Positions 5,212 through 19,595 of a stretch of DNA of 19,985 nt are shown here, piece by piece. The notes beneath the pieces were generated by a model. It was given only the letters and a program-made list of their open reading frames with translations, was not told the DNA's origin and searched no databases. The translations under genes and the position numbers were made by a program. The stretch's first letter is position 1. Each line of letters starts with the position of its first letter. This DNA is from Candidatus Wolfebacteria bacterium (GTDB lineage: Bacteria; Patescibacteriota; Minisyncoccia; UBA6257; UBA9933), in the NCBI GenBank assembly GCA_027336345.1, contig DAHWFZ010000119.1:1-19985 (forward strand), in the 5' to 3' direction.

Positions 5212-5229
5212 TTTGAATAAAATTATTAA

Positions 5230-5259: not shown

Positions 5260-5274
5260 GTTTAAGTTTTTATG

Positions 5275-5280
5275 TATAAT
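5275..5280 (+). promoter_or_regulatory. -10 box of the HD gene, leaderless type
   Basis: Perfect TATAAT, then GAAATT and ATG 5287. No good -35 is visible; that position falls in the T-run of the preceding terminator. The 6-base distance fits transcription starting at the ATG. Confidence 0.55.
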
Positions 5281-5286
5281 GAAATT

Positions 5287-5874: not shown

Positions 5875-5914
5875 TTTATGTAGTGTCGGACTTAATTAAT
5901 CCACATTTTGCTTA

Positions 5915-6203
5915 TTGACCCCGTTAGAAATCTGTCATGTGGTATGTTTACGTTTTACAAAATAAAGATGACGACTGGTATATTGGTTCCACTAGAGATC
6001 TGCAAAAAAGAATTTTAAACCATAACACCGGTAAAAATAAGTCCACAAAATATGGCATTCCGTGGAGGATTATTTATTGTGAAATTGGCTTAAATCAAAA
6101 AGATGCCAGAGTTAGGGAAAAATATCTTAAATCTGGCATGGGTAGGCGTTATTTAAAAAACAGGTTAAAATTCTTTTTTGGCAAAGATTTCTAACGGGGT
6201 TGA
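5915..6203 (+). mobile_element. Putative IR-bounded element carrying a GIY-YIG gene
   Basis: The left arm (5915-5933, TTGACCCCGTTAGAAATCT) and right arm (6185-6203, AGATTTCTAACGGGGTTGA) form a perfect 16-bp DNA inverted repeat, or a 19-bp RNA helix counting two G.U pairs. TTGAC is also repeated directly at both ends (5915-5919, 6200-6204). The enclosed gene starts 3 bases after the left arm and its stop codon lies within the right arm. The ends resemble those of the non-coding element at 6257-6401. Mobility is inference. Confidence 0.6.
5937..6194 (+). CDS. GIY-YIG domain endonuclease, minimal single-domain
   Basis: The 85-residue protein consists of a single GIY-YIG nuclease domain like UvrC-N and the YhbQ/SLX1-type proteins. 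Y3-V-Y5 stands for GIY, Y15-I-G17 for YIG, with R20 or R25 and metal-binding E61 in RVREKYLKSGMGRRYLKNRL. No DNA-binding domain is fused, so specificity must come from the domain itself or from DNA or RNA structure. No Shine-Dalgarno or leaderless -10 box is visible. Uniquely here, the gene is enclosed by complementary arms and its TAA (6192-6194) is part of the right arm, suggesting that gene and arms move or act as a unit. Confidence 0.88.
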   Translation: MWYVYVLQNKDDDWYIGSTRDLQKRILNHNTGKNKSTKYGIPWRIIYCEIGLNQKDARVREKYLKSGMGRRYLKNRLKFFFGKDF

Positions 6204-6229
6204 CTTTCTATAGCATTTTTTGTTAGTAT
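6200..6229 (+). promoter_or_regulatory. Possible outward promoter at the right end of the GIY-YIG element
   Basis: TTGACT (6200-6205), 18 bases, TAGTAT (6224-6229). The -35 box is formed by the element's terminal TTGA. Weak and untested. Confidence 0.25.
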
Positions 6230-6256
6230 CTAAAGGTCATAGAAATCAAATAAATG

Positions 6257-6401
6257 TTGACCCCGTAGTGAAATTGCGACTGCTTTAACTAATTTTACGG
6301 GGCAATTGGAGTAGAATATAAAGTAGTTTATTGATTTTTACTGTTTAATTTTTTAACAATGTTAAAGAAAAATTCGGTCGCAATTCTACTAACGGGGTTG
6401 A
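6257..6401. repeat. Family 1 non-coding IR element, copy A
   Basis: 145 nt. The left arm is TTGACCCCGTAGTGAAATTGCGAC without a break from 6257 to 6280. The right arm, 6377-6401, ends CTACTAACGGGGTTGA. The arms pair over 24 positions with one bulged A and one A.C mismatch. A second internal stem is CTTTAAC / GTTAAAG (6283-6289, 6361-6367), with 9 unpaired bases before the right arm. The last 13 bases (CTAACGGGGTTGA) are identical to the right end of the GIY-YIG element. No ORF of note inside. Confidence 0.75.
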
Positions 6402-6426
6402 TTTTTGAGGAAAAATTTAATAAGAT
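6398..6426 (+). promoter_or_regulatory. Possible ribosomal-operon promoter using the end of element A
   Basis: TTGATT (6398-6403), 17 bases, TAAGAT (6421-6426). The -35 would be made by the terminal GGTTGA of element A. A 7-bp inverted repeat TTTACTT / AAGTAAA (6430-6447) follows directly. Weak -10, so tentative. Confidence 0.3.
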
Positions 6427-6472
6427 TTATTTACTTTTGTAAGTAAAAATTTAAAAAGTGATTTAGCTTTGG

Positions 6473-6528
6473 AATGAGGGCTGAATCCCTCATTTTTATT
6501 GTTGCGGCGAGCGATGCCGCAATATAAA
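6473..6528 (+). promoter_or_regulatory. Leader of the ribosomal operon: two hairpins and a candidate promoter
   Basis: Hairpin 1 is AATGAGGG / CCCTCATT (6473-6480, 6487-6494), followed by TTTTA, and looks like a weak terminator or attenuator. Hairpin 2 is TTGCGGC / GCCGCAA (6502-6508, 6516-6522) with a 7-base loop. TTGTTG (6499-6504), 18 bases and TATAAA (6523-6528) could be a promoter overlapping hairpin 2. In E. coli the equivalent leader binds L4 for feedback; whether this one does is unknown. Confidence 0.4.
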
Positions 6529-6579
6529 CAAAAAAATATACTGATATCGTACTTTGGTATTGGTGAATAAAGTGAAATT

Positions 6580-7194
6580 ATGAAAATTATTTTAGGAAAA
6601 AAATTGAAAATGACCCAAATCTGGAAGGACGGGAAAATTGTTCCGGTCACCATGATTGAGGCCGGCCCGGTAAAAGTTACCCAGCTCAGAACCAAAGAAA
6701 AAGACGGTTATATTGCCGTCCAGGTTGGTTATGGAACAAGAAAGCTGAAGAATATCAAAAAACCGCAGCAAGGCCAGTTTAAAGATTTGGGCAATTTTGC
6801 GCATCTAAAGGAATTCAGGGCAAAGGGCAATGTTGAAATGCCAAGCGTCAATATTGGCGATGTTTTGGATGTCAGCCAATTTAGCGAAGGAGATAAAATC
6901 AAAGTCAGCGCATTGTCAAAAGGGCGCGGATTTCAGGGCGTCGTAAAAAGGCATGGTTTTAAGGGCGGTCCGAAAACCCACGGTCAGAAGAACAGATTAA
7001 GGGCTCCGGGTTCAATCGGCGCCACTGCTCCTCAGAGGGTTACTCCGGGGAAAAGAATGGCGGGACGCATGGGACAGGAAAGGTTTGCAATCAAGAATTT
7101 AAAAGTTATTGAAATTGATAAAGATAAAAATATTTTAATGGTTAAAGGAGCTGTCCCGGGATTTAAAGGCAGACTTCTTGAAATACAAAAATAA
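6580..7194 (+). CDS. rplC: 50S ribosomal protein L3
   Basis: Early-assembling 23S rRNA-binding protein whose loop reaches towards the peptidyl-transferase centre. The 204 residues include the conserved long loop (about 114-166) with KGRGFQGVVKRHGFKGGPKTHG, GSIGATAPQRVTPG and MAGRMG, and a typical end VKGAVPGFKG. It is the first gene of the ribosomal run; S10, which usually precedes it, is not in this window. No Shine-Dalgarno at normal spacing. TAAAGT lies 6 bases before the ATG, the same spacing and following bases (GAAATT) as in the HD gene. Confidence 0.97.
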   Translation: MKIILGKKLKMTQIWKDGKIVPVTMIEAGPVKVTQLRTKEKDGYIAVQVGYGTRKLKNIKKPQQGQFKDLGNFAHLKEFRAKGNVEMPSVNIGDVLDVSQFSEGDKIKVSALSKGRGFQGVVKRHGFKGGPKTHGQKNRLRAPGSIGATAPQRVTPGKRMAGRMGQERFAIKNLKVIEIDKDKNILMVKGAVPGFKGRLLEIQK

Positions 7195-7202
7195 ATTCAT
7201 TT

Positions 7203-7832
7203 ATGAAATTTGATATTGTAAACATTGAGAATAAAAAGGTTGGACAGGCTGAATTATCAGATACGATTTTTGGCGCCAAATGGAATTCCAATCTGGTTAA
7301 ACAGGTTATGGTTGCCCAGCTTGCCAACAAGCGCGAACCGATTGCCCATGCCAAAGGAAGGGGCGAAGTAAGCGGAGGAGGCAAAAAACCATGGAAACAA
7401 AAAGGAACAGGCCGCGCAAGGCAGGGCTCCAACAGGTCTCCGATCTGGGTTGGAGGAGGCGTTTCCCATGGTCCGGTAAAAGAAAGGGATTTTTCACAGA
7501 AAGTGAACAAGAAAATGAAGACCGCGGCCCTTTTTTCGGTAATTTCAAAAAAACTTAAAGATAATGAGATATTGATAGTTGACCAATTCCAGAATGTCGG
7601 CAATAAGACAAAAGATTGGGCAAATGTTTTGAAGAATTTAACCGACAGAAGATCCAGAACATTAATGATTTTGGAAAATGGCAATAGGGGATTTTCGAAA
7701 GCGATTTCAAATCTTCCCAAAATTGATACCATCAGCCCGCTATCATTGAATGTTTACGATTTATTAAAGAGTAAAAAAATAATTTTGGAATCAAAAGCGA
7801 TTGAAGAAATGACAAAGCAGTACGTGTCATAA
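7203..7832 (+). CDS. rplD: 50S ribosomal protein L4
   Basis: 23S rRNA-binding protein lining the exit tunnel; in E. coli also the autoregulator of the S10 operon. The 209-residue protein shows the extended tunnel loop at about 50-91 (AKGRGEVSGGGKKPWKQKGTG, then RARQGSNRSP and GGGVSHGP). The C-terminal globular part is normal in length. It follows L3 by 8 bases without a Shine-Dalgarno. Its stop TAA coincides with the left end (TAAATTAAAAA) of the A-rich repeat at 7830. Confidence 0.97.
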   Translation: MKFDIVNIENKKVGQAELSDTIFGAKWNSNLVKQVMVAQLANKREPIAHAKGRGEVSGGGKKPWKQKGTGRARQGSNRSPIWVGGGVSHGPVKERDFSQKVNKKMKTAALFSVISKKLKDNEILIVDQFQNVGNKTKDWANVLKNLTDRRSRTLMILENGNRGFSKAISNLPKIDTISPLSLNVYDLLKSKKIILESKAIEEMTKQYVS

Positions 7833-7924
7833 ATTAAAAATAGAAAAATAAAAAGTAAAAACGACAGTGAAAAATTTTAAATTAATTTTCAGTTTTTCAT
7901 TTTCAGTTTTTAAATTGAAACGTG
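7830..7924. repeat. Family 2 A-rich/T-rich hairpin element before L23
   Basis: 95 nt filling the L4-L23 gap. The A-rich left half (TAAATTAAAAATAG...) can fold imperfectly on the T-rich right half (TTTTCAGTTTTTCATTTTCAG...). The first 33 bases match the element at 13372 at 30 of 33 positions, and both end TTGAAACGTG with the GTG as start codon. ACGTGTCA (7822-7829) and ACGTGGCA (7920-7927) flank it almost as a direct repeat. Confidence 0.65.
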
Positions 7925-8284
7925 GCAACCGTAAAAACAACAAAAAAATCAAAAGCAGCAGTTGAATCAAAAGAAGTTACCGCGACTTCCGGCGCTTTTG
8001 ACGGCAAAAAAATATTTTCAATCAAGCATCCTTGGATAACTGAAAAGGCATACAGATTGTCATCCGGGGGCAAGTACGTTTTTATTGTTGACGCGCAAAC
8101 CAACAAATCGGAAGTTAAAAAAGCTGTTAAGGTTTTATATAAAGTTGATCCGGTTTCGGTTAATATCATAAATTCCAGGGGGAAAAATACGCATTTTGGA
8201 TCAAAATTTACAGCCGGAAAAGAATATAAAAAAGCGATTGTTACACTAAAGAAAGGCCAAAAAATCGACGTAATGCCGTCATAA
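7922..8284 (+). CDS. rplW: 50S ribosomal protein L23, GTG start
   Basis: Protein at the tunnel exit, docking site for trigger factor and SRP. The core from about residue 30 (FSIKHPWITEKAYRL...YVFIVDAQTNKSEVKKAVKVLYKVDPVSVN) is typical L23. It carries a basic, low-complexity N-terminal extension of about 30 residues (MATVKTTKKSKAAVESKE), giving 120 residues against about 100 in E. coli. The only suitable start is GTG 7922, directly at the end of an A/T-rich repeat; no ATG lies in frame before the end of the gene and no Shine-Dalgarno is present. Confidence 0.95.
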   Translation: MATVKTTKKSKAAVESKEVTATSGAFDGKKIFSIKHPWITEKAYRLSSGGKYVFIVDAQTNKSEVKKAVKVLYKVDPVSVNIINSRGKNTHFGSKFTAGKEYKKAIVTLKKGQKIDVMPS

Positions 8285-8314
8285 AGAACACAGTAAATTT
8301 TTTAAATTTTATTC

Positions 8315-9139
8315 ATGAAAAAATATAAACCAACAAGTCCATCAAGAAGGCAGATGATGGGAATTGATTATTCCGTCCTGACCAAAGTTGAACCGCTTAG
8401 AAAGCTGCTTATTAAGCTGCCGAAACACGGCGGAAGAAATAATCAGGGCAGAATTACAATGCGGCATCAGGGAGGCGAGAACAAGAAGTTCTACCGTGTT
8501 GTTGATTTTAAACAGGACAAGCTGGATATTTCAGGGAAGATTGAAGCCATTGAATATGATCCGTATCGCACGGCTTTTATCGCCAGAGTTATTTACAATG
8601 ACGGCGAAAGAAGGTATATTTTAGCTTCAAAGGAGATGGCAGTCGGTATGGCGATCATTACATCGGAAAATGCTCCTCTTAAGACGGGTAATCGCCTTGT
8701 TTTAAAAAATATCCCGATAGGCCAATTCGTTTATAATATTGAATTGTCAAAAGGAAGGGGAGGACAAATTGCCAGGTCAGCCGGTTCATATGCAAAAATT
8801 TTGGCGCATGAAGGCAAGTATACCCACTTGAAGATGTCTTCCGGCGAAGTAAGAAAAGTTGTCTCGGAAGGTTTCGCTTCTATAGGAGAAGTTTCAAATG
8901 GAGAACACGCACTGGTTAATATCGGAAAAGCCGGGCGCCAAAGGCAATTGGGCGTAAGACCTACCGTTAGAGGAACGGCTATGAATCCCCGCGACCATCC
9001 ATATGGAGGCGGAGAAGGAAAGCAAAGGAGAGGAACCAAGAGGCCGAAAACCAAATGGGGCAAGGTTACGGGAGGAAGAAAGACCAGAAGCAAGAAAAAA
9101 TATTCAAACAAGATGATAGTTGAAAGAAGGAAAAAATAA
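8315..9139 (+). CDS. rplB: 50S ribosomal protein L2
   Basis: Core 23S rRNA-binding protein required for subunit association and peptidyl transfer. The 274-residue length equals the family standard. Visible are the OB-type N-domain (KHGGRNNQGRITMRHQGGE) and the C-terminal VRGTAMNPRDHPYGGGEG. H228 matches the conserved E. coli H229, although the usual second His of DHPHGGG is Tyr here. The basic tail ends KKKYSNKMIVERRKK. It follows L23 by 30 bases with no Shine-Dalgarno. Confidence 0.97.
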   Translation: MKKYKPTSPSRRQMMGIDYSVLTKVEPLRKLLIKLPKHGGRNNQGRITMRHQGGENKKFYRVVDFKQDKLDISGKIEAIEYDPYRTAFIARVIYNDGERRYILASKEMAVGMAIITSENAPLKTGNRLVLKNIPIGQFVYNIELSKGRGGQIARSAGSYAKILAHEGKYTHLKMSSGEVRKVVSEGFASIGEVSNGEHALVNIGKAGRQRQLGVRPTVRGTAMNPRDHPYGGGEGKQRRGTKRPKTKWGKVTGGRKTRSKKKYSNKMIVERRKK

Positions 9140-9171
9140 ATTAATAACTAACTAACCACAGTAAAATAATT

Positions 9172-9483
9172 ATGAGCAGAAGTTCAAAAAAAGGACCATA
9201 TGTAGACCCGAAGTTGCTTGAAAAAGTGGCTAAGTTAAAAGTGGGTGACAGGACTGTTATAAAAACATGGTCCAGAGATTCTGAAATTTCTCCGGAAATG
9301 ATCGGTTTTATATTTGGAGTTCATAATGGAAAGAATTTTATTGAAGTAAGGGTTACCGAGGAAATGGTTGGGCATCGTCTTGGAGAATTTTCTTTGACCA
9401 GAAAATTTGTCAGGCATGGAGGCAAGATGCAAAAAGACATAGAAAAGAAAGCGGCTGCTCCGGCTCCCGCGGCAAAGAAATAA
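9172..9483 (+). CDS. rpsS: 30S ribosomal protein S19
   Basis: Head protein of the small subunit that forms a complex with S13 and contacts the A-site finger. The sequence [44 protein letters not shown] and [16 protein letters not shown] matches the family throughout. The last dozen residues ([12 protein letters not shown]) are an Ala/Pro/Lys tail not found in the 92-residue E. coli protein. The gene lies 32 bases after L2 with no Shine-Dalgarno. Confidence 0.96.
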
Positions 9484-9498
9484 TAAAATAAAATTGTA

Positions 9499-10074
9499 AT
9501 GAAACAACAAACCGCACAATTAAATTATCTGAGGATTGCTCCGCGTAAAGTGAGGCTGGTTGCCAACCTCATAAAAGGAATGCAAGTCGCCGAAGCGGAA
9601 GCTCAGCTTTTGGTAAATCCGAAAAGAGCCGCGGAATCGGTATTGAAGCTTTTAAGGTCAGCCGTATCCAATGCCAAGAATGGAGACATGTCAGTTGAAA
9701 AACTTATTGTCAAAGAAATCAGAGTTAACGAAGGTCCGGTGCTTAAAAGATTTATGCCAAGGGCTCAGGGGCGCGCTACTTCAATCCACAAAAAGAGCAG
9801 CCATATAACTTTGATTTTGGAAGAATCTGAAAAAGCCGCAAAACCCCGCTTCAAAATCGTCAAAGCTGCCAGAGTAAAAAAATCGGAGCTTGAAAAGATG
9901 AAAAAAATTGAGGAAAGAAGAAAGAAAGACGAATCACATGAAGAGGTGAAAGAAACCCTTAAAAAGCGAGAGCCGGTTTACAACGAAGATAAGTCAAAGG
10001 ACGTTAAAACAAAAGAAAAGCCAAGCATCGGCAAAAGAATGTTCAGAAGAAAAGCAATGGGCGGAGGAAAATAA
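9499..10074 (+). CDS. rplV: 50S ribosomal protein L22 with long charged C-terminal extension
   Basis: Tunnel-lining 23S rRNA-binding protein. Residues 1-112 form a complete L22 (LNYLRIAPRKVRLVANLIKG, LLRSAVSNAKNG, LKRFMPRAQGRATSIHKKSSHITLILEE). About 80 further residues follow, very rich in Lys and Glu (SELEKMKKIEERRKKDESHEE...), probably helical or disordered and ending in FRRKAMGGGK. E. coli L22 has 110 residues, so this protein is almost twice as long. The extension is in frame without any break, so it is a real part of the gene. Its function is unknown; surface rRNA binding would be a guess. Confidence 0.95.
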   Translation: MKQQTAQLNYLRIAPRKVRLVANLIKGMQVAEAEAQLLVNPKRAAESVLKLLRSAVSNAKNGDMSVEKLIVKEIRVNEGPVLKRFMPRAQGRATSIHKKSSHITLILEESEKAAKPRFKIVKAARVKKSELEKMKKIEERRKKDESHEEVKETLKKREPVYNEDKSKDVKTKEKPSIGKRMFRRKAMGGGK

Positions 10075-10102
10075 TTTGAAAATAAAGAACTAACTAAATT
10101 TC

Positions 10103-10780
10103 ATGGGAAATAAAATTAAACCAACTTCATTAAGATTAGGAATCATCAGGGACTGGAATGCAAAATGGTTCCCGAAGAGACTTGAGTTCAAGGCCTTTTT
10201 AGAGGAGGATGTTTTGATCCGAAAAATTATAGGAGAAAAGATTGGTGGAGCCGGAATCGACAGGATTGTAATTGAGCGCGTCGGCGATTCTTGCAGAATT
10301 TTCATCAAAGCGGCAAAGCCGGGTTTGATAATCGGCCGGGGAGGAAAAGGAATTGAAGATTTGAAAAAATTGATTGAAAAGAAAATCGCTTCATTAAGGA
10401 CTGCGAATAAACTGCCGAAATTGAAGAACTTGAGTTTAAATATTGAAGAATTGAAAAGGACCGACATTTCTGCCGCTGTTGAAGCCCAGAATATTGCCGG
10501 AGAATTGGAAAGAAGAATGCCTTTCAGGAGAGTCATTAAAAAGCATCTTGAAGGAATTTTACAGCACAGGGAAGTTAAAGGAGCTAAAATCAGAGTTGGC
10601 GGACGTTTGAATGGCGCTGAAATCGCAAGGCACGAGCATTTGGAAAAAGGAACAATACCTTTGCATACCATTAGGGCAAACATCGATTATGCCGAAGCCA
10701 CTGCTTTCACTACCTATGGGACCATCGGCGTGAAGGTTTGGATAAACAAAGGAGAAGTTTTCGGAAAGGAAAAGATTTAA
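10103..10780 (+). CDS. rpsC: 30S ribosomal protein S3
   Basis: Protein at the mRNA entry channel. The N-terminal part MGNKIKPTSLRLGIIRDWNAKWF is typical, the KH RNA-binding domain carries its GxxG loop as G78-R-G-G81 (LIIGRGGKGIEDL), and the C-domain has VKGAKIRVGGRLNGAEIARHE. At 225 residues it is close to the E. coli protein (233). The gene is 28 bases after L22; a GGAGG in the end of rplV is too far away to serve as a Shine-Dalgarno. Confidence 0.97.
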   Translation: MGNKIKPTSLRLGIIRDWNAKWFPKRLEFKAFLEEDVLIRKIIGEKIGGAGIDRIVIERVGDSCRIFIKAAKPGLIIGRGGKGIEDLKKLIEKKIASLRTANKLPKLKNLSLNIEELKRTDISAAVEAQNIAGELERRMPFRRVIKKHLEGILQHREVKGAKIRVGGRLNGAEIARHEHLEKGTIPLHTIRANIDYAEATAFTTYGTIGVKVWINKGEVFGKEKI

Positions 10781-10801
10781 GGTGAAATTTAATTTTTAAA
10801 C

Positions 10802-11215
10802 ATGTTACAACCCAAAAAAGTAAAACATAGGAAGTGGATGAAGGGAAAATCCAAAACCAGAATGGTTGAAACCAGAGGGATGGAGCTTAGTTTTGGCAGC
10901 TTCGGATTACAGGCTTTGGATGGCGCTTGGGTCAATGCAAGACAGATTGAAGCTTCAAGAAAAGCCATAACTCATCACATAAAAAGAGGAGGAAAAGTTT
11001 GGATCAGAATTTTCCCAGACAAGCCGATAACCAAAAAACCGCCCGAGGTCACTTTGGGAGGAGGAAAGGGTGCGGTTGACCATTACGTTTTTGCGGTTAA
11101 GCCGGGCAGAGTCTTGTTTGAATTGGATGGTGTTAAAGAAGATGTTGCCAGGGAAGCGTTAAGAAGAGCCGGGCACAAATTACCGGTTAAAACAAGAGTT
11201 ATTGCAAAGAGTTAA
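10802..11215 (+). CDS. rplP: 50S ribosomal protein L16
   Basis: Large-subunit protein near the A site that positions tRNA. The 137-residue sequence shows [17 protein letters not shown], the conserved loop region ([26 protein letters not shown]), [32 protein letters not shown] and [13 protein letters not shown]. No extension or gap. AAGGTG lies about 17 bases before the start, too far for normal use. The L29 gene follows only after a 185-base gap filled by a repeat element. Confidence 0.97.
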
Positions 11216-11258
11216 TTACTAATATATAAATAAATTCAGGCGTTTAAGTCAAAATTAT

Positions 11259-11403
11259 TATGCCCCGTAGTGAAACTGCGATAGTTCAAATATTTCGAGT
11301 TTTACAACGTGGCAAAAATAATATTTAAATAAACCAACAATAATTAATAGAATAACGATTATAAATTTGAAGAAATAAAATCGCAGTTCTACTACAGGGT
11401 ATG
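11259..11403. repeat. Family 1 non-coding IR element, copy B, between L16 and L29
   Basis: 145 nt. Left arm TATGCCCCGTAGTGAAACTGCG begins at 11259; right arm TCGCAGTTCTACTACAGGGT begins at 11381 and runs into TATG (11400-11403), whose ATG is the start codon of rpmC. The arms pair with one C.A and one A.C mismatch. Compared with copies A and C, one T-A pair in the stem is C-G here. A second stem is TTCAAAT / ATTTGAA (11285-11291, 11365-11371), again with 9 unpaired bases before the right arm. Confidence 0.8.
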
Positions 11404-11604
11404 AAGAAACAGGAATTCCAACAATTAAAAGAGAAAAGCGTTGCTGAACTTCAGAAAGATCTCAGGAGTTTTCAAGAAAAACTCAGGGACTTGAAGCTTG
11501 ATTTGGCTGCCGGAAAAGTTAAAAATATTAAAGAAATCAAGAATATCAAAAAAGTTGTTGCAAAAATAATGACATTAATTAATCAAGGTAAAGCGACTAT
11601 ATAA
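11401..11604 (+). CDS. rpmC: 50S ribosomal protein L29
   Basis: Small helical-hairpin protein near the tunnel exit next to L23. Residues 1-67 match the family: [56 protein letters not shown]. The start ATG 11401 is the last part of repeat element B and has no Shine-Dalgarno. The preceding base run belongs to the element's right arm, so the original 5' flank of this gene has been replaced. Confidence 0.93.
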
Positions 11605-11608
11605 AACT

Positions 11609-11839
11609 ATGAGCCGAAAATTAAAGGGAACTGTCGTTTCCGACAAAATGAATAAGACTAGAATTGTTGCCATTGAGAAGCTTAAGAAGCATCCGCGCTA
11701 CCAGAAGTTTTATAAAGTAACTGCCAGATTTAAGGCGCATGATGAAAAGAACGAATATAAGACCGGTGATAATGTCATTATTGAAGAAACAAGGCCGTTA
11801 TCAAAAGATAAGAGGTGGAAAATAAGCGAAAAAATTTAA
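11609..11839 (+). CDS. rpsQ: 30S ribosomal protein S17
   Basis: Primary 16S rRNA-binding OB-fold protein. The 76 residues include [64 protein letters not shown], typical over the full length. It starts 4 bases after L29 without a Shine-Dalgarno. A REP-like repeat fills the gap to L14. Confidence 0.96.
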
Positions 11840-11848
11840 AACATAGCT

Positions 11849-11896
11849 GTCATCCTGAGCGATAGCGAAAGGATCCTTCGGGATTACCCTTGGGAC
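11849..11896. repeat. REP-like repeat between S17 and L14
   Basis: GTCATCCTGAGCGATAGCGA begins at 11849, followed by the near-palindrome CGAAAGGATCCTTCG (11866-11880) and GGGACGAC (11891-11898). It belongs to the same broad repeat type as those at 1453 and 17423-17646. It fills most of the 78-base gap between the two ribosomal genes. Confidence 0.65.
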
Positions 11897-11917
11897 GACA
11901 TAATATGCCGATTTATT

Positions 11918-12286
11918 ATGATACAAGAACGATCAATTTTAAAAGTTGCCGACAATAGCGGTGCCAAAACCGTGCGCTGTTTTAGGATTTTAGGCGGAAC
12001 CAGAAAACGCTATGCCAGAATCGGCGATGTAATCGTCGCTTCGGTACAGGAAGCGGAGCCGAGAAAATCCGTCAAAAAGAAAGACAAGGTTAAGGCAGTT
12101 TTGGTAAGGCAAAAGAAGTCATTCCGCCGCGCGGATGGTTCTTATGTTCGTTTTGATGAAAATGCGGTTGTGCTGATAAATCCAAAGAAAGAACCGGTTG
12201 CCACCAGAATTTTCGGACCAATTTTGAGGGAATTAAAGGAAAAAGGATTTGAAAAAATAGTAACTATGGCGGAAGAAATAGTTTAA
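11918..12286 (+). CDS. rplN: 50S ribosomal protein L14
   Basis: Beta-barrel protein at the subunit interface with bridge contacts and a binding site for the silencing factor RsfS. All 122 residues align without gaps to the usual protein: [68 protein letters not shown] and [21 protein letters not shown]. No Shine-Dalgarno; TTTATT directly precedes the ATG. L24 follows by 4 bases. Confidence 0.97.
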
Positions 12287-12290
12287 ATAT

Positions 12291-12596
12291 ATGAAAATAA
12301 AGAAAGGCGATACAGTAAAAATTTTAATAGGGAAAGACAAAAATAAAGCAGGCAAGGTTATAAAAACGCTTCCGTCTGTCGGCAAAGTTTTGATTGAAGG
12401 CTTGAATATGTTCAAAAAGAGCGTAAAGCCGAAAAAGCAGGGCGAAAAAGGGCAGATTGTTTCATTTCCGAGAGCAATAAATGTTTCCAATGTAATGCTG
12501 GTTTGCCCGAATTGCAAAGCCGCAGCCAGAGTCGGATATGTTATTGAAGGTGACGACAAGAAAAGAGTTTGCAAAAAGTGTCAGGCAAGAATTTAA
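12291..12596 (+). CDS. rplX: 50S ribosomal protein L24, with a four-Cys zinc-ribbon-like C-terminus
   Basis: Assembly-initiator protein of the large subunit. The N-terminal KOW motif is KIKKGDTVKILIGKDKNKAGKVI, followed by VLIEGLNMFKKSVKP. The C-terminal part contains C72-x-x-C75 and C94-x-x-C97, an arrangement that could bind zinc. It is 101 residues long and follows L14 by 4 bases without a Shine-Dalgarno. Confidence 0.95.
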   Translation: MKIKKGDTVKILIGKDKNKAGKVIKTLPSVGKVLIEGLNMFKKSVKPKKQGEKGQIVSFPRAINVSNVMLVCPNCKAAARVGYVIEGDDKKRVCKKCQARI

Positions 12597-12614
12597 AGCA
12601 TAAAGATTATAATT

Positions 12615-13172
12615 ATGAAAGATTTAAAGTTTAAAGAAAAATATAATAAGGAAGTTGCCGCGAAGATGAAGGAAAAATTCGGGCACAAAAATTTATTATC
12701 CATACCTAAGATTGAAAAGGTGGTTGTTAATGTCGGCGTCGGGAAAAAGAGCCAGCAGCAGGGTTTTGAAGACAAGGTATTGCCTGAAATCGTAAAAGAT
12801 TTGTCGGCAATCACGGGACAAAAACCAAAAACAACAACCGCAAAGAAATCAATCGCAGGATTTAAAACAAGGCAAGGCCAGATTGTCGGGTTGGTTGTCA
12901 CATTAAGAGGCAACAGGATGGCGGATTTTATGGACAGATTAATCAAGATTGTTTTCCCGCGCGTTAAGGATTTCAGGGGAATTGAGTTGAAAAATATTGA
13001 TAAAAACGGTAATCTTTCTATTGGCTTTAAAGAGCATGTGGTGTTTCCGGAAATAAGCCAGGAAACCTCAAGGCAGGATTTTGGCTTGGAAGTTACGATT
13101 GTTCCGAATATTAAGAACAGGGATGAGGCAGTGGAATTATACAGATTATTGGGAATGCCTCTTAAAAAATAA
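12615..13172 (+). CDS. rplE: 50S ribosomal protein L5
   Basis: Central-protuberance protein that binds 5S rRNA and contacts P-site tRNA. Family signatures: [85 protein letters not shown] and [27 protein letters not shown]. At 185 residues it is close to the usual 179. The start ATG 12615 is preceded by an A/T-rich stretch without a Shine-Dalgarno. S14 begins 11 bases after its end. Confidence 0.97.
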
Positions 13173-13183
13173 TTATAAAAACA

Positions 13184-13369
13184 ATGGCAAAAAAATCAGT
13201 CATAGCAAGATCAAAAAAAACACCGAAGTTTTCAACCCGCTCAGTCAGGCGTTGTTTCCGCTGCGGGAGAAAGCATGGTTATATGAGAGATTTCGGTATC
13301 TGCCGTATTTGCTTCAGGGAAATGGCTTCCAAAGGGGAGATTCCGGGAGTTAAAAAAGCAAGCTGGTAA
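13184..13369 (+). CDS. rpsN: 30S ribosomal protein S14, zinc-binding short form
   Basis: Small-subunit head protein. This is the C+ type of 61 residues, with C24-x-x-C27 and C40-x-x-C43 ([22 protein letters not shown]) binding zinc, unlike the 101-residue zinc-free E. coli protein. The end [17 protein letters not shown] is standard. It lies 11 bases after L5 and is followed by a 107-base gap filled by an A/T-rich repeat. Confidence 0.97.
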
Positions 13370-13371
13370 GC

Positions 13372-13479
13372 TAAATTAAAAACAGAGAAATAAAAAGAAA
13401 AAACTAAATTTAAAAAATAAAAATCAGCAAATTCAAAAAGTTTTCGGTTTTTATATTTTAATTTTAAATTTGAAACGTG
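13372..13479. repeat. Family 2 A-rich/T-rich hairpin element before S8
   Basis: 108 nt. The left end TAAATTAAAAACAGAGAAAT continues into an A-rich tract; 30 of its first 33 bases match the element at 7830. The right half is T-rich and ends TTTTAAATTTGAAACGTG, whose GTG is the S8 start codon. Left and right halves are imperfectly complementary. The middle parts of the two copies differ, so the ends are the conserved portion. Confidence 0.65.
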
Positions 13480-13857
13480 TATATAGATTTATTAATAAAA
13501 ATTAAAAATGCTCAGGCAGTTAAAAAAGAATCCATTAAGGTTCCTTATTCGGGCAACGATGAAAGGATTTTGGAAATTCTAAAAAGAAATAATTTCATCG
13601 GGAATTTTGAAAAAAAGGGAAGAGGTATAAAGAAAATTATGAGCATTGATTTGAAATATGCGGATGGCAAAGGAGCTATCAGCGGAATCAGACTTTTCAG
13701 CACGCCGAGCCGCCACCTCTATGCCGGTTATAAGGAAATAAGGTTGGTAAGGGGCGGATACGGAATTTCAGTTATTTCAACCCCGGAAGGAGTTATGACC
13801 GGAGCTGAAGCAAGAAAGAGAAAGTTGGGCGGAGAGTTATTTTTCCAAATGTGGTAA
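13477..13857 (+). CDS. rpsH: 30S ribosomal protein S8, GTG start
   Basis: 16S rRNA-binding protein of the platform and, in E. coli, repressor of the spc operon. The 126-residue protein begins VYIDLLIKIKNAQAVKKESIKVPYS, lacking only the few leading residues of the usual start. It ends GGYGISVISTPEGVMTGAEARKRKLGGELFFQMW, typical of S8. GTG 13477 is the only suitable start since the first in-frame ATG lies deep in the domain. The GTG coincides with the end of the A/T-rich repeat. Confidence 0.95.
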   Translation: MYIDLLIKIKNAQAVKKESIKVPYSGNDERILEILKRNNFIGNFEKKGRGIKKIMSIDLKYADGKGAISGIRLFSTPSRHLYAGYKEIRLVRGGYGISVISTPEGVMTGAEARKRKLGGELFFQMW

Positions 13858-13893
13858 AAATTTAAAAGATAAATTGTTAAATATAAAATTGAT

Positions 13894-14463
13894 ATGTCAA
13901 AAATAGGCAAAAAACCAATAGTAATACCAGATAATATAACCGTAGTTAAAAACGGTGATGTTTTGGAATTCAAAACAGGAGACAAAGCAGCAGAATTAAA
14001 AGTGTTGCCTTATATCAGTGCTGAAATTTCAGAAGAAACTGTTGATGATAAAACCGTTAAAGTTTTGACTTTTAAGACTACAAAAGATTTGAATCAGGCG
14101 ACTGCTAACTGGGGAACAACACGCTCTCTGGCAAACAATATTATTGAAGGATTGAAGAAGGGTTTTATAAAAATTTTGGAAATTGAAGGAGTTGGATACA
14201 GGGCCAATATGGAAGGAGATGTATTGGTATTGAATCTTGGTTTTTCACATCCAGTCAGATTTGTTTCCAGAAAAGGAGTAAAAATTTCGTCTGAAAAGAA
14301 CGTTATAACCATCTCGGGTCAGGATAAAGAAGCTGTCGGACAGATTGCCGCTGAAATAAGGGCTCTCAAGAAACCGGAGCCTTACAAGGGAAAGGGAATC
14401 AAATACAGGGGAGAAATTATAAGGAGAAAACAGGGTAAGAAAGTTGGAAGCGCGGGCAAGTAG
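13894..14463 (+). CDS. rplF: 50S ribosomal protein L6
   Basis: Two-domain protein next to the factor-binding site. The first half begins SKIGKKPIVIPDNITV and the second contains FIKILEIEGVGYRANMEGDVLVLNLGFSHPV. The C-terminal KKPEPYKGKGIKYRGEIIRRKQGKK is the conserved rRNA-contact end. At 189 residues it is slightly longer than E. coli (177). It lies 36 bases after S8 without a Shine-Dalgarno. Confidence 0.97.
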   Translation: MSKIGKKPIVIPDNITVVKNGDVLEFKTGDKAAELKVLPYISAEISEETVDDKTVKVLTFKTTKDLNQATANWGTTRSLANNIIEGLKKGFIKILEIEGVGYRANMEGDVLVLNLGFSHPVRFVSRKGVKISSEKNVITISGQDKEAVGQIAAEIRALKKPEPYKGKGIKYRGEIIRRKQGKKVGSAGK

Positions 14464-14470
14464 AAAATAA

Positions 14471-14518
14471 AATGGTAAATGCAAAAAGTAAAATCGAACC
14501 CATTCCGCATTATCCATT
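14471..14518. repeat. Inverted repeat between L6 and L18
   Basis: AATGGTAAATGC (14471-14482) and GCATTATCCATT (14507-14518) pair at 10 of 12 positions around an A-rich centre. The 72-base gap otherwise contains only A/T-rich sequence and no Shine-Dalgarno for L18. It may be a third kind of intergenic hairpin in this operon. Confidence 0.55.
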
Positions 14519-14535
14519 AAACATTTGACTAATTT

Positions 14536-14898
14536 ATGAACAAAAAAAGAAAAAAAATAAACGAAACAAGATTAAGGAGAAAAAATCGCACCGGCGCTAA
14601 GATTTTTGGCACCTTGGAAAAGCCCAGACTCTCTGTTTTTAAGAGCCATTTTTACACCTATGCCCAGCTGATTGATGATTCGGCCGGAAAGACTTTGGTC
14701 AGCGCGTCAACCCATGAATTGAAAGAATTGAAATCAAAAACAAGAGTTGATGAAGCCCGGTCGTTGGGAGAATTGGTCGCGAAAAAAGCATTGGAAAAGA
14801 AAATTTCATCGGCTATTTTTAACAGAGGCAGTTATGCGTACCACGGTCGTGTTAAAGCTGTCGCCGAAGGAGCTCGCAAAGGCGGATTAAAGATATAA
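14536..14898 (+). CDS. rplR: 50S ribosomal protein L18
   Basis: 5S rRNA-binding protein of the central protuberance. The 120 residues show RLRRKNRTGAKIFGTLEKPRLSVFKSHFYTYAQLIDDSAGKTLVSAST and the C-terminal AIFNRGSYAYHGRVKAVAEGARKGGLKI, all standard. ATG 14536 follows an inverted repeat and a short A/T-rich stretch, with no Shine-Dalgarno. S5 starts 18 bases downstream. Confidence 0.97.
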   Translation: MNKKRKKINETRLRRKNRTGAKIFGTLEKPRLSVFKSHFYTYAQLIDDSAGKTLVSASTHELKELKSKTRVDEARSLGELVAKKALEKKISSAIFNRGSYAYHGRVKAVAEGARKGGLKI

Positions 14899-14916
14899 TA
14901 AAATTATTTTATAAAC

Positions 14917-15426
14917 ATGGAAAACAGAAGACAAGACAATAGAAGGCCGATGGCTCCGAAGCCAAAAGCCGAATTTAAGGAAAAAACAATTGACTTGCGC
15001 AGAGTTACGCGTGTTGTGTCCGGGGGAAAAAGAATGAGTTTCAGGGCGACTGTCATAATCGGAGATGAAAAAGGGAGAGTGGGCCTTGGCCTCGGAAAAG
15101 GCCTTGATGTCGCTCAGGCGATTGATAAGGCAAAAACCAAAGCTAAAAAGAATTTAGTTACCATTAACTTGAAAGGAAGAACCATCCCTCACGAAACATC
15201 CGCAAAATACAGTTCGGCAAGAGTGCTTATCAAACCGGCTAAATTGGGACACGGATTGAAAGCGGGAGGATCAATGCGTAATGTTTTGCTTATGGTTGGA
15301 ATTAAAGATGCCACTGCAAAAACATTGGGCACTACAAAAAACAAACTTACGAATGCGATGGCGACAATTGATGCGTTAAAAGATCTCAAACCGGCCAGGC
15401 ATTACAAGCAAGCGCCCGTAAAATAA
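14917..15426 (+). CDS. rpsE: 30S ribosomal protein S5
   Basis: Small-subunit protein with a role in decoding accuracy and mRNA unwinding. The double-stranded-RNA-binding-like N-domain is RVTRVVSGGKRMSFRATVIIGDEKGRVGLGLGKG. The C-domain contains NLKGRTIPHE, ARVLIKPAKLGHGLKAGGSMRNVL and GIKDATAKTLGTTKNKLTNAMATIDAL. At 169 residues it has near-standard length, with a short basic N-terminal leader. L15 follows by 11 bases; the L30 gene that normally stands between them is absent. Confidence 0.97.
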   Translation: MENRRQDNRRPMAPKPKAEFKEKTIDLRRVTRVVSGGKRMSFRATVIIGDEKGRVGLGLGKGLDVAQAIDKAKTKAKKNLVTINLKGRTIPHETSAKYSSARVLIKPAKLGHGLKAGGSMRNVLLMVGIKDATAKTLGTTKNKLTNAMATIDALKDLKPARHYKQAPVK

Positions 15427-15437
15427 GCTATAAATTT

Positions 15438-15857
15438 ATGCAATTACACGAATTAAAATCAACAACAAAAAATAGGAAAGAAACCAGAGTTGGCCGTGGA
15501 GGAAAGCGCGGTACTTATTCGGGCCGTGGAACAAAAGGACAAAAAGCAAGGTCAGGGCACAGAATCAGGCCGGCAATCCGCGATTTGCTTATCCGCATTC
15601 CTAAATTAAGAGGATTCGCGAATAAGGCTATAATTTCAAAGCCTGAAATTGTTAACCTTAAAAATATTGAAAGCAAAGTGAAAGAAACCTTGATAACCAA
15701 GGAATTATTGGCAAAATACGGGTTGATTAAAAATGCGTCCATTGAGGTTAAAGTTTTATCAAACGGCGAGGTTAAAAGAGCTTTAACTCTAAAAGGCATT
15801 TCCGTTTCTGAAAAAACAAAAGAGAAAATTGAAGCAGCCGGGGGAAAAGTGGAATAA
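15438..15857 (+). CDS. rplO: 50S ribosomal protein L15
   Basis: Late-assembly 23S rRNA-binding protein. The glycine- and arginine-rich N-terminal tail (RKETRVGRGGKRGTYSGRGTKGQKARSGH) and the globular end (RALTLKGISVSEKTKEKIEAAGGKVE) match the family. Length is 139 residues against 144 in E. coli. No Shine-Dalgarno. A 100-base gap containing short inverted-repeat fragments separates it from secY. Confidence 0.96.
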   Translation: MQLHELKSTTKNRKETRVGRGGKRGTYSGRGTKGQKARSGHRIRPAIRDLLIRIPKLRGFANKAIISKPEIVNLKNIESKVKETLITKELLAKYGLIKNASIEVKVLSNGEVKRALTLKGISVSEKTKEKIEAAGGKVE

Positions 15858-15957
15858 AAAACGCGGTTCAAAATATTCAAATACATCCGAATGCCTCAAA
15901 TTAAATATTTGTGGATTCGTATGAAATTTGCAGATTGGAATTGCTCGCGTAAGCATA

Positions 15958-17220
15958 ATGAACAAATTTCTTAAACTTTTTAAAAATAAAGATCTCCGCA
16001 ATAAGGCTCTTATAGTTATTGGTTTATTGATCGCTTTCAGGGTTTTGGCCGCAATACCGATTCCCGGCATTGACGCAGCCAGATTAAGGGATTTTTTCGC
16101 GTCCAGCCAATTATTCAGCTTTTTGGGCGTTATGGCTGGCAGCACATTGAGCAATTTGTCTATCATAATGCTTGGAGTCGGCCCGTATATTACCGGCACT
16201 ATTATTATGCAGCTTCTGACTATGATTTTCCCGAAGTTGAAAGAGATATATTATGAAGAAGGAAACGCGGGACGCGCTAAATTTAACCGCTTATCAAGAT
16301 ATATTACGGTCCCATTGGCAATACTTCAGGGCTATGGATTTTTGAATCTCCTTATGTCTCAGGGAGTTTTGCCGCGCTTGGGCTTATTTGAAATTATAAG
16401 AGATGTTATTGTGATTACCGCGGGATCAATGATTTTGATGTGGATCGGCGAACTTATTACGGAACAAAATATGGGTAATGGCATTTCATTGATAATTTTT
16501 GCGGGTATTGTCAGCAGGCTTCCATCATCCATCGGAAATATTATTAAAACATATAATGCGGCTGATTTGCCGACATATCTGGCATTTATAATCGTTGCCG
16601 TTGTGGTTATTGCCGGAGTTGTTTTTGTAAATGAAGGGGAAAGAAAAATTCCGGTTTCATACGCCAAACAGATAAGAGGCAATAAAATGTACGGCGGAGT
16701 TTCCAGCTATTTGCCGATTAAGGTTAATCAAGCCGGAGTTATTCCAATCATATTTGCCATTTCAATTATGCTTTTCCCGCAGTTTATAGCCCAAGTCAGC
16801 GCGGTGTTCTCAAAAGCTCTTTCACTGAGACTAACCGACTTCGTAACCGGAGTATTCAATAACCAATATATTTACAGTTCAATATATTTTGCAATGGTTG
16901 TCCTGTTTACTTATTTTTATACCGCAGTTACGTTTGATCCGAATGAAATTTCAAAAAATTTGCAAAGAAGCGGAGGATTCATCACCGGTATCAGGCCGGG
17001 AGAATCAACAACTGTTTTTCTTGGAAAAACAATCAATCGCATTACGCTTTGGGGCGCAATCTTTCTTGGCATTATTGCTATCCTGCCTAATATTTTGAGA
17101 ATGTTTACCGGCATATCATTTTTGACAATAGGCGGCACGGCGGTATTAATCGTTGTTTCGGTGGCTCTTGAAACAATAAGGCAAGTTGATTCCCAACTGA
17201 TGATCAGGGAATACGAATAA
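15958..17220 (+). CDS. secY: Protein translocase channel subunit SecY
   Basis: Membrane pore of the Sec translocon, expected to have ten transmembrane helices. The 420 residues show the N-terminal cytosolic NKDLRNKALIVIGLLIAFRVLAAIPIPGI, the plug region FSFLGVMAGSTLSNLSIIMLGVGPYITGTIIMQLL, WIGELITEQNMGNGISLIIFAGIV, and the ribosome-contacting loop with PVSYAKQIRGNK and ending DPNEISKNLQRSGGFITGIRPGEST. I use ATG 15958 rather than the upstream in-frame TTG 15928 because the protein then begins with the family's usual start. It is the last gene of the ribosomal run, as in the spc operon, but the genes that often follow (adk, map, infA) are absent; a terminator follows instead. Confidence 0.97.
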   Translation: MNKFLKLFKNKDLRNKALIVIGLLIAFRVLAAIPIPGIDAARLRDFFASSQLFSFLGVMAGSTLSNLSIIMLGVGPYITGTIIMQLLTMIFPKLKEIYYEEGNAGRAKFNRLSRYITVPLAILQGYGFLNLLMSQGVLPRLGLFEIIRDVIVITAGSMILMWIGELITEQNMGNGISLIIFAGIVSRLPSSIGNIIKTYNAADLPTYLAFIIVAVVVIAGVVFVNEGERKIPVSYAKQIRGNKMYGGVSSYLPIKVNQAGVIPIIFAISIMLFPQFIAQVSAVFSKALSLRLTDFVTGVFNNQYIYSSIYFAMVVLFTYFYTAVTFDPNEISKNLQRSGGFITGIRPGESTTVFLGKTINRITLWGAIFLGIIAILPNILRMFTGISFLTIGGTAVLIVVSVALETIRQVDSQLMIREYE

Positions 17221-17240
17221 AAATTTATAAATTATTCTAA

Positions 17241-17269
17241 AAAATCCGGCTTTTAAGCCGGATTTTTTT
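17241..17269 (+). terminator. Rho-independent terminator after secY
   Basis: Stem AAAATCCGGCTT / AAGCCGGATTTT (17241-17252, 17255-17266) with a two-base gap at the centre, followed by more T. It starts 20 bases after the secY stop and closes the ribosomal transcription unit. Confidence 0.92.
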
Positions 17270-17272
17270 GCT

Positions 17273-17712: not shown

Positions 17713-17855
17713 TATGCCCCGTAGTGAAATTGCGAATGATTTTTCATTAAATATCATTATCGGGTTATAATAAAAAGTATTTTGAGGTGTGAACAAATTA
17801 TTAAAAATAAAATTTTTAATAAAATTTTAAGTTCGCAATTCTACTACAGGGTATG
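17713..17855. repeat. Family 1 non-coding IR element, copy C, before the ABC transporter
   Basis: 143 nt. Left arm TATGCCCCGTAGTGAAATTG begins at 17713; the right arm (from 17831, GTTCGCAATTCTACTACAGG) ends GTATG, whose ATG (17853-17855) starts the ABC transporter. The arms pair over 25 positions with two mismatches (17720.17848 C.A and 17727.17841 A.C), at the same places as in copy B. A TATAAT at 17766-17771 inside the element could be a -10 box, but its -35 is poor. Confidence 0.8.
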
Positions 17856-19595
17856 GAAATCCCAAAAGAATTAAAATTCGTCTGGACAAAAATTGAAAAT
17901 AAGAAAAAAGTCTATTTGGGCATAGCCGCCACTTTTTTTGTGAGCGCAATCAGCGCGGTGGTCCCGTATATTTATGGCCGTTTGGTTGATATTTCCATAA
18001 AACCGGATTCTTCCGCCAAGCTTTTGTTGATAATTATTATTTTATGGGCTCTTTTATCGCTTATTAGGGATGCTGTGGACAGATATAGCGGTAAATTCGC
18101 TTATGAGATTGGCATGGATATTTTCACAATACTTCAGGTGGATGTCGTGGCGCATATTATGAATTTGCCGCTGCAGTTTCATAAAGAGAAAAAGATTGGG
18201 GAGGTATCAAATAGAATTAACAGGGGAATTGACGATCTTTATAATCTGATTGAAAGCACTATCTTTTCATTTTTTCCGACAATCATTACATTTTTTGTCG
18301 CCATAATTATTCTCTTATTTGTAGAATGGAAATTAACGATTATTCTGCTGGTTGCGAGCATAGCTTATGTCGCGATTACTTTTTTCTATACAAAACAAGT
18401 AATAAAATGGCAGAAAAAATTGAATCAGGCATGGGACAAGGCTTTCGGCGACAGGCACGATGCCATGTTTAATGTTGAAACCGTCAAAGCTTCCACAAAT
18501 GAAAAATTTGAATACGAAAGGAATAAAAAAAATTTTGGTAAAGCCAGCGATGTATTCAAATATTACCGCTATATCTGGATGCAGATGGATAAATGGCAAA
18601 GCACTATTTTTACATTGAGTTTCATAATTGTCTTCGGTCTTGGGGTGTTTATGCTGAGGGCGGGAACTATGACTCCCGGAAAATTGATGATGTTTGTCGG
18701 TTACATAAGCCTTCTTACGGCGCCTCTTTCCAGAATAGCCGACCAGTATAGGAGAGTAAAAAGATCGTTAACCTCGTTTAAAAGGGTGGTGGATTATTTT
18801 TCAATTGCTCCGGAAAAAGATTTTGGAAAAACAATTGATGTTAAAGAGATTGAAGGCAATATTGCATTTGAAAATGTCGGCTTTGGTTATAAAAAAGGCC
18901 AGATGACCATAAAAAATATTTCTTTTGAAATTAAATCAGGTGAAACAGTTGCCCTTGTTGGGGAAAGTGGCGTCGGTAAAACTACCATTACTAATTTAAT
19001 AGGCAGATACTTTTTCCCTCAGGAAGGGAAAATTTTAATTGACGGCATTGATATCAAGAAGTTTAAGTTGAGTATGTTGCGGAATAATATGGCGGTAGTG
19101 CCGCAGGAAGTTTTGCTTTTTAACGATACGATTGAGAACAATATAAAATATGGGAATATGAAAGCGAAGGAAAAAGAAATAGTTGAAGCAGCTAAGGCCG
19201 CGAATGCCCGCGAATTTATTGAAAAATTTCCAAAAAAATACAAACAAATTGTCGGTGAAAGGGGAATCAAACTGTCTACCGGAAAGAAGCAAAGGATTGC
19301 GATTGCACGGGCGATTTTGCGCAATCCCAAGATTTTGATTTTGGATGAAGCCACATCTGCTCTTGATTCGGTTTCGGAAAAATTGGTTCAGGAAGCTTTA
19401 AATAATCTTATAAAAAATCGGACAACTTTTATAATTGCGCATCGCTTAAGCACGATTCAGCATGCGGATAAAATTATTGTTTTGGAAAACGGAAAAATCG
19501 CGGAAATGGGCAAGCATGGCGAATTAATGCAAAATCCAAACGGAATTTATAGAAATTTCTGGGAACTTCAGACAGCGATTGAAAAAGTAAAATAA
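17853..19595 (+). CDS. ABC exporter, fused membrane and ATPase domains (MsbA/ABCB-like)
   Basis: Type IV (exporter) ABC half-transporter of 580 residues that should work as a dimer, exporting lipids, peptides or drugs; the substrate is unknown. Residues 1-320 contain about six transmembrane helices. The ATPase domain has Walker A G370-E-S-G-V-G-K376-T377, Q-loop VVPQEVLLFND, signature L474-S-T-G-K, Walker B ILILD498 with catalytic E499 (LDEATSALD) and H-loop H530 (AHRLST). The signature LSTGK departs from LSGGQ, but Walker B Glu and switch His are intact, so it can probably hydrolyse ATP. The ATG is the end of repeat element C and has no Shine-Dalgarno. Confidence 0.95.
   Translation: MEIPKELKFVWTKIENKKKVYLGIAATFFVSAISAVVPYIYGRLVDISIKPDSSAKLLLIIIILWALLSLIRDAVDRYSGKFAYEIGMDIFTILQVDVVAHIMNLPLQFHKEKKIGEVSNRINRGIDDLYNLIESTIFSFFPTIITFFVAIIILLFVEWKLTIILLVASIAYVAITFFYTKQVIKWQKKLNQAWDKAFGDRHDAMFNVETVKASTNEKFEYERNKKNFGKASDVFKYYRYIWMQMDKWQSTIFTLSFIIVFGLGVFMLRAGTMTPGKLMMFVGYISLLTAPLSRIADQYRRVKRSLTSFKRVVDYFSIAPEKDFGKTIDVKEIEGNIAFENVGFGYKKGQMTIKNISFEIKSGETVALVGESGVGKTTITNLIGRYFFPQEGKILIDGIDIKKFKLSMLRNNMAVVPQEVLLFNDTIENNIKYGNMKAKEKEIVEAAKAANAREFIEKFPKKYKQIVGERGIKLSTGKKQRIAIARAILRNPKILILDEATSALDSVSEKLVQEALNNLIKNRTTFIIAHRLSTIQHADKIIVLENGKIAEMGKHGELMQNPNGIYRNFWELQTAIEKVK

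Follow-up and report, generated by a model that had tools for sequence, protein, structure and literature searches.

A mobile DNA hairpin that sits mostly at start codons in Parcubacteria genomes and has relatives encoding a GIY-YIG nuclease

In a 19,985-nucleotide stretch of Candidatus Wolfebacteria bacterium (GCA_027336345.1, contig DAHWFZ010000119.1, positions 1 to 19,985 of the forward strand; hereafter the window), three repeats of 143 to 145 nt are copies of a mobile DNA hairpin that occurs in many Parcubacteria genomes and is not primarily a regulatory RNA. The family of copies, its ends, the covariation of its arms, the 4-bp repeats around it, the empty sites, the position at start codons and the presence of GIY-YIG elements with like ends all support this directly, and they are probably best explained by a foldback transposon that depends on a GIY-YIG nuclease and that, together with short non-autonomous derivatives, settles at start codons. 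The window is contig C82 of a 554-kb genome and carries genes of the ribosomal-protein operon; at least 12 copies of the short hairpin element are present in this genome. The three copies in the window, A (6257-6401, 145 nt), B (11259-11403, 145 nt) and C (17713-17855, 143 nt), have the lengths given in a preliminary description of this DNA, which suggested a conserved fold of RNA or single-stranded DNA. Their parts, and the target genes of B and C, are as follows.

6257..6260, + strand: 5′ direct repeat TTGA of copy A (sequence)
6261..6397, + strand: copy A, 137-bp hairpin element; the site is not a start codon
6398..6401, + strand: 3′ direct repeat TTGA of copy A (sequence)
11259..11262, + strand: 5′ direct repeat TATG of copy B, identical to 11400-11403
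11263..11399, + strand: copy B, 137-bp hairpin element with arms CCCCGTAGTGAAACTGCGA / TCGCAGTTCTACTACAGGG (sequence comparison)
11400..11403, + strand: 3′ TATG of copy B; the ATG at 11401-11403 is the rpmC start codon
11401..11604, + strand: rpmC (ribosomal protein L29), target gene of copy B (Ribosomal_L29, PF00831)
17713..17716, + strand: 5′ TATG of copy C (sequence)
17717..17851, + strand: copy C, 135-bp hairpin element (sequence comparison)
17852..17855, + strand: 3′ TATG of copy C; an ABC-transporter gene begins with its ATG (17853)
17853..19595, + strand: ABC transporter gene, target of copy C (PF00664 and PF00005)

With a covariance model built from copies flanked by NATG, genomes of the candidate phyla radiation (CPR) were searched, as had been proposed in the preliminary description, and matches were obtained in 64 of the 244 genomes of the order (E<=1e-3), in 65 of 383 genomes of the class (E<=1e-5) and in seven of 379 genomes sampled from the phylum (E<=1e-6), three of the seven coming from the window's own class. 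The set analyzed below comprises 102 copies, 10 from the window's own genome and 92 places from the search of relatives (L099, among the 92, is also from the own genome); the 92 are the best of a longer match list with one strand kept per place, and two weak places (L073:652-798 and L113:168-275) as well as the copy on contig C122 of the own genome, which is broken by the contig end, were left out. Arm statistics were calculated on the 80 copies in register, the 22 out of register being dropped. A second set was collected by sequence pattern, with the 5′ TATG fixed and the 3′ side free, and holds at least 127 copies in 120 loci; this set is not independent of the 102 copies because 20 of the 127 are common to both, the 5′ TATG being fixed as well. 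The titles of the genomes in the pattern set include Parcubacteria, Portnoybacteria, Yanofskybacteria, Jorgensenbacteria and Nealsonbacteria, while some read only ‘bacterium’ and one reads Spirochaetia; the elements on contigs with this last title (L262, L267, L288 and L298, QYPD01 records) probably belong to a mislabelled metagenome-assembled genome. Viral contigs gave seven pattern matches; NATG repeats together with an ORF starting at the ATG occur only in L428, and the remaining six resemble chance hits.

Alignment of the ends of the 102 copies showed that the elements run from CC to GG and have the same four bases on either side. When the ends were fixed by the model, these 4-bp repeats were identical in 76 of the 102 copies (permuted mean 31.7, maximum 45). 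When boundaries were picked with a bonus for equal repeats, 84 of the 102 pairs were equal and per-position identity was 93, 98, 99 and 94 of 102 inside the repeat and 12-34 of 102 outside it. The commoner repeats were TATG/TATG (50), CATA/CATA (9), CATG and AATG (4 each) and TTGA, CTTG and TAAA (3 each); TATA and ATAA occurred twice, and AAAA, TATT, ATGA and CAGG once each. In the sister genome G011 (whole, 629,802 bases), seven of ten examined start-codon sites that are occupied in G010 were empty and held a single TATG or CATG, the ten sites being part of the G010 matches. Three of these empty sites (L080, L106 and L132) align through the junction with an overlap of exactly 4 nt, and the other four align up to a point of local divergence; an eleventh G010 copy (L128, at an AAAA site) was also aligned and stands outside this count. 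The remaining three sites are occupied in G011, one by an orthologous element and two by elements with different arms. One orthologous copy, at rpsQ, has been kept in two sister species. At the rplO start codon (L153; G011 C8:48625-48766) G010 and G011 carry elements with different arms, which suggests recurrent insertion at one site. In addition, two G097 copies that are 98% identical lie at a CTTG and a TAAA site. The elements therefore have both the inverted ends and the target-site duplication by which miniature inverted-repeat transposable elements (MITEs) are recognized.

The arms had first drawn attention by a T-A pair of copies A and C that is C-G on both sides in copy B, by a G·U pair beside an A·C mismatch in all three copies and by a C·A mismatch common to B and C, and all of these are present in the DNA. 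The same pattern was then found across the family. Among 13 copies (11 from the own genome and two from relatives), five pairs are altered on both sides, a value reached by 6 of 500 shuffles. Rather than the uncompensated changes or the loss of the mismatch that would speak against a conserved structure, the 80 copies in register have Watson-Crick pairs in 1306 of 1360 cells outside arm positions 10 and 11, the others being 24 G·T, 17 A·C and 13 of other kinds, and 77 of the 80 have G·T at position 10 and A·C at position 11. Position 14 is A-T in 47 copies, C-G in 22, T-A in 6 and G-C in 1; position 15 is T-A in 47, C-G in 25, G-C in 4 and A-T in 3; and position 16 is G-C in 38, T-A in 37 and A-T in 3. 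In two of the 80 copies the pairs at positions 10 and 11 are swapped, as expected of an inverted element. This G·T/A·C mismatch is the sole fixed asymmetry of the arms and gives the hairpin a polarity, which suggests strand-specific recognition. The 7-bp second stems described for copies A and B are there, copy C being without an exact 7-bp stem, and such an inner stem was found in 50 of the 102 copies compared with 11.0 in shuffles; the rule that exactly nine unpaired bases follow it fails as a general statement, since it holds in only 2 of 102. Without their flanking repeats the short elements measure 113-156 bp (median 137 bp), a range in which the model's own length favors near-equal lengths, and their interiors, only about 75-120 bp, have diverged in sequence. 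The covariation of the arms fits base pairing and also fits two ends co-adapted to one enzyme, and pairing alone is no proof of a folded RNA because inverted ends read by one enzyme covary too. A strand-specific excess of pairing was not found overall in the 80 copies (24 G·T versus 17 A·C outside the fixed mismatch); by position, G·T and A·C stood at 9 to 0 at position 12 and at 7 to 11 at position 4. Thus, of the conserved fold first proposed, the foldback with compensated changes and a fixed polar mismatch is strongly supported, while the reading as RNA or single-stranded DNA is incomplete, the units being mobile elements.

We next consider where the elements lie. The ATG of a downstream ORF ends 75 of the 102 copies, 68 in forward orientation and 7 on the other strand. 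In the pattern set, among the matches listed, the free 3′ flank was TATG in 121 of 127 copies and an ORF opened there in 118 of 126 (102 of 107 and 98 of 106 after removal of the 20 shared copies), and two of the eight exceptions resemble, in our judgement, rpmH and rpmJ, both of them short genes. As a background taken from the one genome G011 with a simple ORF caller, starts account for 233 of the 622 TATG/CATA sites that are non-coding, far fewer in proportion than the 49 of 50 among TATG/TATG copies. Pfam was run on 40 of the 75 downstream proteins, chosen partly by our own identification, and 39 were matched, which yields a list of targets and carries no claim of gene-class enrichment; names given to downstream genes beyond these proteins are likewise our identification from sequence. 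In the window the confirmed targets are L29 and the ABC transporter; in other places they are the ribosomal proteins L19, L20, L13, L15, S5, S6, S10, S12 and S17 together with RpoB, GrpE, SecE, a release factor, EF-P, Obg and seven tRNA ligases. Insertion at a start codon spares the downstream coding sequence and its own ATG because the duplicated tetranucleotide contains ATG. The predominance of such insertions, including those at presumably essential genes, may reflect preferred targets, loss of copies elsewhere, or both; copies at non-start sites are not younger (medians 0.77 for 65 start and 0.76 for 26 non-start copies, p=0.41), which leaves retention unsupported. The element forms part of the 5′ leader of the gene that follows and is probably transcribed, so that it may have a role as RNA as well. 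Shine-Dalgarno-like motifs are rare with or without an element (3 of 75 element sites; 13 of 247 and 31 of 315 control starts).

A candidate for the coding relative of the short elements is present in the window itself, upstream of copy A:

5915..5918, + strand: 5′ TTGA of the GIY-YIG element (sequence)
5919..6199, + strand: 281-bp GIY-YIG element with ends CCCCGTTAGAAATC … GATTTCTAACGGGG, candidate coding relative
5937..6194, + strand: ORF for a GIY-YIG nuclease of 85 aa, with its stop codon inside the right arm (PF01541, E 1.9e-14)
6200..6203, + strand: 3′ TTGA of the GIY-YIG element (sequence)

The protein of the ORF at 5937 belongs to the GIY-YIG superfamily by its PF01541 domain and by its fold. 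Among the matches listed for one structural model, the highest Z scores against solved structures were those of HIGLE and Slx1, which are branched-DNA nucleases; UPF0213 proteins are similar to it in both sequence and fold, and the difference from all of these is that here the gene lies inside a mobile element. The single NCBIfam match, a group I intron endonuclease, was far under its cut-off (25.9 of 56.05 bits). Coding elements of this kind are 280-323 bp long, have ends and repeats similar to those of the short elements and encode a GIY-YIG nuclease of about 85 aa, their arms of roughly 14-23 bp, usually with CC at the start and GG at the end, enclosing one ORF. A screen of G011 for symmetric arms turned up nine CC…GG elements flanked by 4-bp repeats. 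Just one of them contains an open stretch of more than 60 aa, and this encodes GIY-YIG; the start of its arm (CCCCGCACCTTT) is common to four short elements of the same genome. The screen missed a second GIY-YIG element of G011, which is flanked by TGGA repeats and has a bulged arm. In G043, G140 and G010, coding elements that have a GTAGTGA/TCTACTAC core and are flanked by TATG or AATG also precede ORFs. Across element-bearing genomes, inverted arms (Smith-Waterman score of at least 28) flank 52 of 70 GIY-YIG loci, 16 of the 52 also having a 4-bp repeat, compared with 2 of 140 control ORFs for arms and 0 of 140 for arms plus repeat. With a stricter score in an earlier set, arms were found at 15 of 33 GIY-YIG loci, 10 of them with a repeat, and at 0 of 60 controls. 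GIY-YIG was present in all 26 element-bearing genomes tested. As a separate observation, the window holds at 17491-17610 two 47-nt direct repeats, 85% alike, of the GTCATTCTGACGTACTCGGAAGAATCT type, and repeats of this type occur as 29-nt inverted arms around other GIY-YIG genes of the own genome (C78 and C81).

On this basis we propose the following course of events. The full form, 280-323 bp, would consist of arms around a GIY-YIG ORF with an Slx1-like fold, and the abundant short form, 113-156 bp and represented by copies A, B and C, would keep the arms and lack the ORF. The arms may extrude as hairpin or cruciform DNA, whose junction and polar G·T/A·C step the nuclease would recognize, cutting at the CC/GG ends; the element would then be joined to a break with a 4-nt stagger, in most cases at NATG, and so produce the 4-bp duplication. 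The GIY-YIG enzyme would act on the hairpin in its DNA form, and the short copies would be mobilized in trans, so that one protein moves both forms. The hairpin or cruciform step, the cause of the start-codon preference and the way in which translation copes with the insertion are proposed here in the same conditional sense. When arms were matched genome by genome, the agreement was not significant overall (117 of 2000). More tentatively, the elements may form a new class of transposable element whose sole protein is a Slx1-like GIY-YIG nuclease of about 85 aa, which would mobilize hairpins aimed at start codons, the duplicated AUG and a looped-out hairpin permitting translation of essential genes. 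To our knowledge, the enzyme groups of transposons are DDE, HUH, Tyr, Ser and Cas1. Should GIY-YIG alone drive movement, the elements would make up a class of transposons beyond these groups and would rank with the smallest mobile elements that carry a gene. Insertion at precisely the ATG, with duplication, is a way into gene-dense, streamlined genomes without breaking proteins, and it raises a question of initiation in CPR bacteria, where rpoB, rpsL and alaS would be translated behind a stem of about 20 bp that reaches the AUG, with a Shine-Dalgarno-like motif nearly absent.

A different source of mobility, which we consider unlikely, is that the copies are classical MITEs or repetitive extragenic palindromic (REP) sequences moved in trans by a DDE or Y1 transposase (IS200/IS605 or a REP-associated tyrosine transposase, RAYT), with GIY-YIG as cargo only. 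Bacterial MITEs are also short and multicopy, with inverted ends and target duplication, but here the coding relative carries a gene for a GIY-YIG nuclease, the target is a start codon and the paired arms hold a polar mismatch; GIY-YIG, which the relatives with like ends encode, is not known as a transposase. A Y1 transposase is present in 15 of the 26 element-bearing genomes, but Y1_Tnp was not found in the other 11, including the own genome, G010, G011 and G161, in a scan that covered some incomplete genomes and did not extend to DDE transposases, and Y1 as the driver was rejected for this reason; a source in trans may nevertheless lie outside an incomplete assembly. G011 has no other open stretch of more than 60 aa within symmetric ends of up to 900 bp, a screen that bulged arms would escape. 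IS200/IS605 elements are not known to make a target-site duplication, and the 4-bp duplication seen here contradicts an assignment to them or to REP-RAYT systems. In the passages compared, GTAG-tagged REPs and REPINs (hairpin-forming REP doublets) share with the present arms an imperfect hairpin and the GTAG motif (PMC3733652); the differences are the 4-bp duplication, the pairing of GTAG within the stem and the several hosts in which Y1 was not found. A term search of a review of MITEs (PMC10969869) found none of the terms GIY-YIG, endonuclease, homing, Patescibacteria and start codon, and the element was not found described in a full-text literature search whose reach excluded preprints and most subscription journals.

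It is distinctly improbable that the copies are a duplicated cis-regulatory RNA leader, i.e., a structured 5′ untranslated region for translational control with the flanking repeats belonging to the RNA and the start codon pairing with the upstream ATG. The copies do directly precede start codons, mostly in coding orientation, the arms and often the inner stem pair, position 12 has its nine G·T to no A·C, and the rpsQ copy has been retained. Furthermore, a -10-like box lies upstream of 22 of 45 element start sites without a close upstream gene and of 9 of 30 with one, compared with a shuffled rate of 9.3%; therefore the hairpin would often open the transcript. Overall the box was found at 31 of 75 element start sites versus 46 of 247 and 70 of 315 control starts, and it was not clear at non-start sites (2 of 27 forward, 4 of 27 reverse). 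Against a leader, 4-bp repeats also flank copies at sites without ATG (TTGA, CTTG, TAAA, ATAA, TATT and CAGG), sites are empty in the sister genome, the interiors have diverged, two of the three co-occupied sites hold different elements in the sister species, the strand-specific excess is absent overall, and the target genes have, in our judgement, no common pathway. Rfam gave no match at the gathering cut-off in the window, introns included, and nine copy-bearing loci gave 12 matches at E<=1, none of them an intron, with only two tRNAs in L030 reaching the cut-off. The Rfam matches that overlap an element, MIR2629 (21 of 60 bits) and speF (19 of 37), are far below theirs. On these results we rejected a known structured RNA family, there being no match at a family cut-off, and a group I or II intron, there being no intron match in the window (gathering) or in the nine loci (E<=1).

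Byps of yeast mitochondria are mobile hairpins between repeated codons, inside ORFs. A byp-like element here, at which translation would begin at the upstream AUG and the ribosome would then hop to the duplicate AUG, is highly improbable: the hairpin is flanked by identical triplets and, among the matches listed, none of 125 copies forms an open in-frame fusion that begins at the 5′ ATG, where shuffles predict 2.2, but the copies lie mostly at start codons and not within ORFs (118 of 126 precede an ORF start among the matches listed), and no indication of initiation at the 5′ ATG was seen.

The proposed GIY-YIG-dependent foldback transposon may also bear on GIY-YIG proteins and short insertions in CPR rRNA genes that are unexplained in the passages compared (PMC11270868), to which no direct link was found. 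According to these passages, all GIY-YIG proteins of CPR rRNA genes lie in insertions that match no intron, most uncharacterized insertions without an ORF are shorter than 200 bp, and the sites of GIY-YIG insertions are poorly conserved (PMC11270868). The CPR host, GIY-YIG in non-intron insertions, short insertions without an ORF and the low conservation of GIY-YIG insertion sites are thus shared with the present elements; ends and repeats are not given in those passages. A search for 23S rRNA in 23 genomes gave a match in 13, and the present elements were not found in those 23S loci; the screen provides no support because its lone match in 30 loci has TC…GA ends, symmetric arms and an exact repeat being required and bulged arms therefore missed.

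Two smaller hairpins were also observed. A 75-nt hairpin with a related core, GACCCCGTATTAGAATT … GGAATTTCACTACGGGGC, lies upstream of rpoB (L032 1481-1555; G000:C126, 7480-7554), and a hairpin of about 65 nt with a GTAGTGAAACTGCGA core follows shortly after a putative terminator (L037, G014:C4, 1500-1564).
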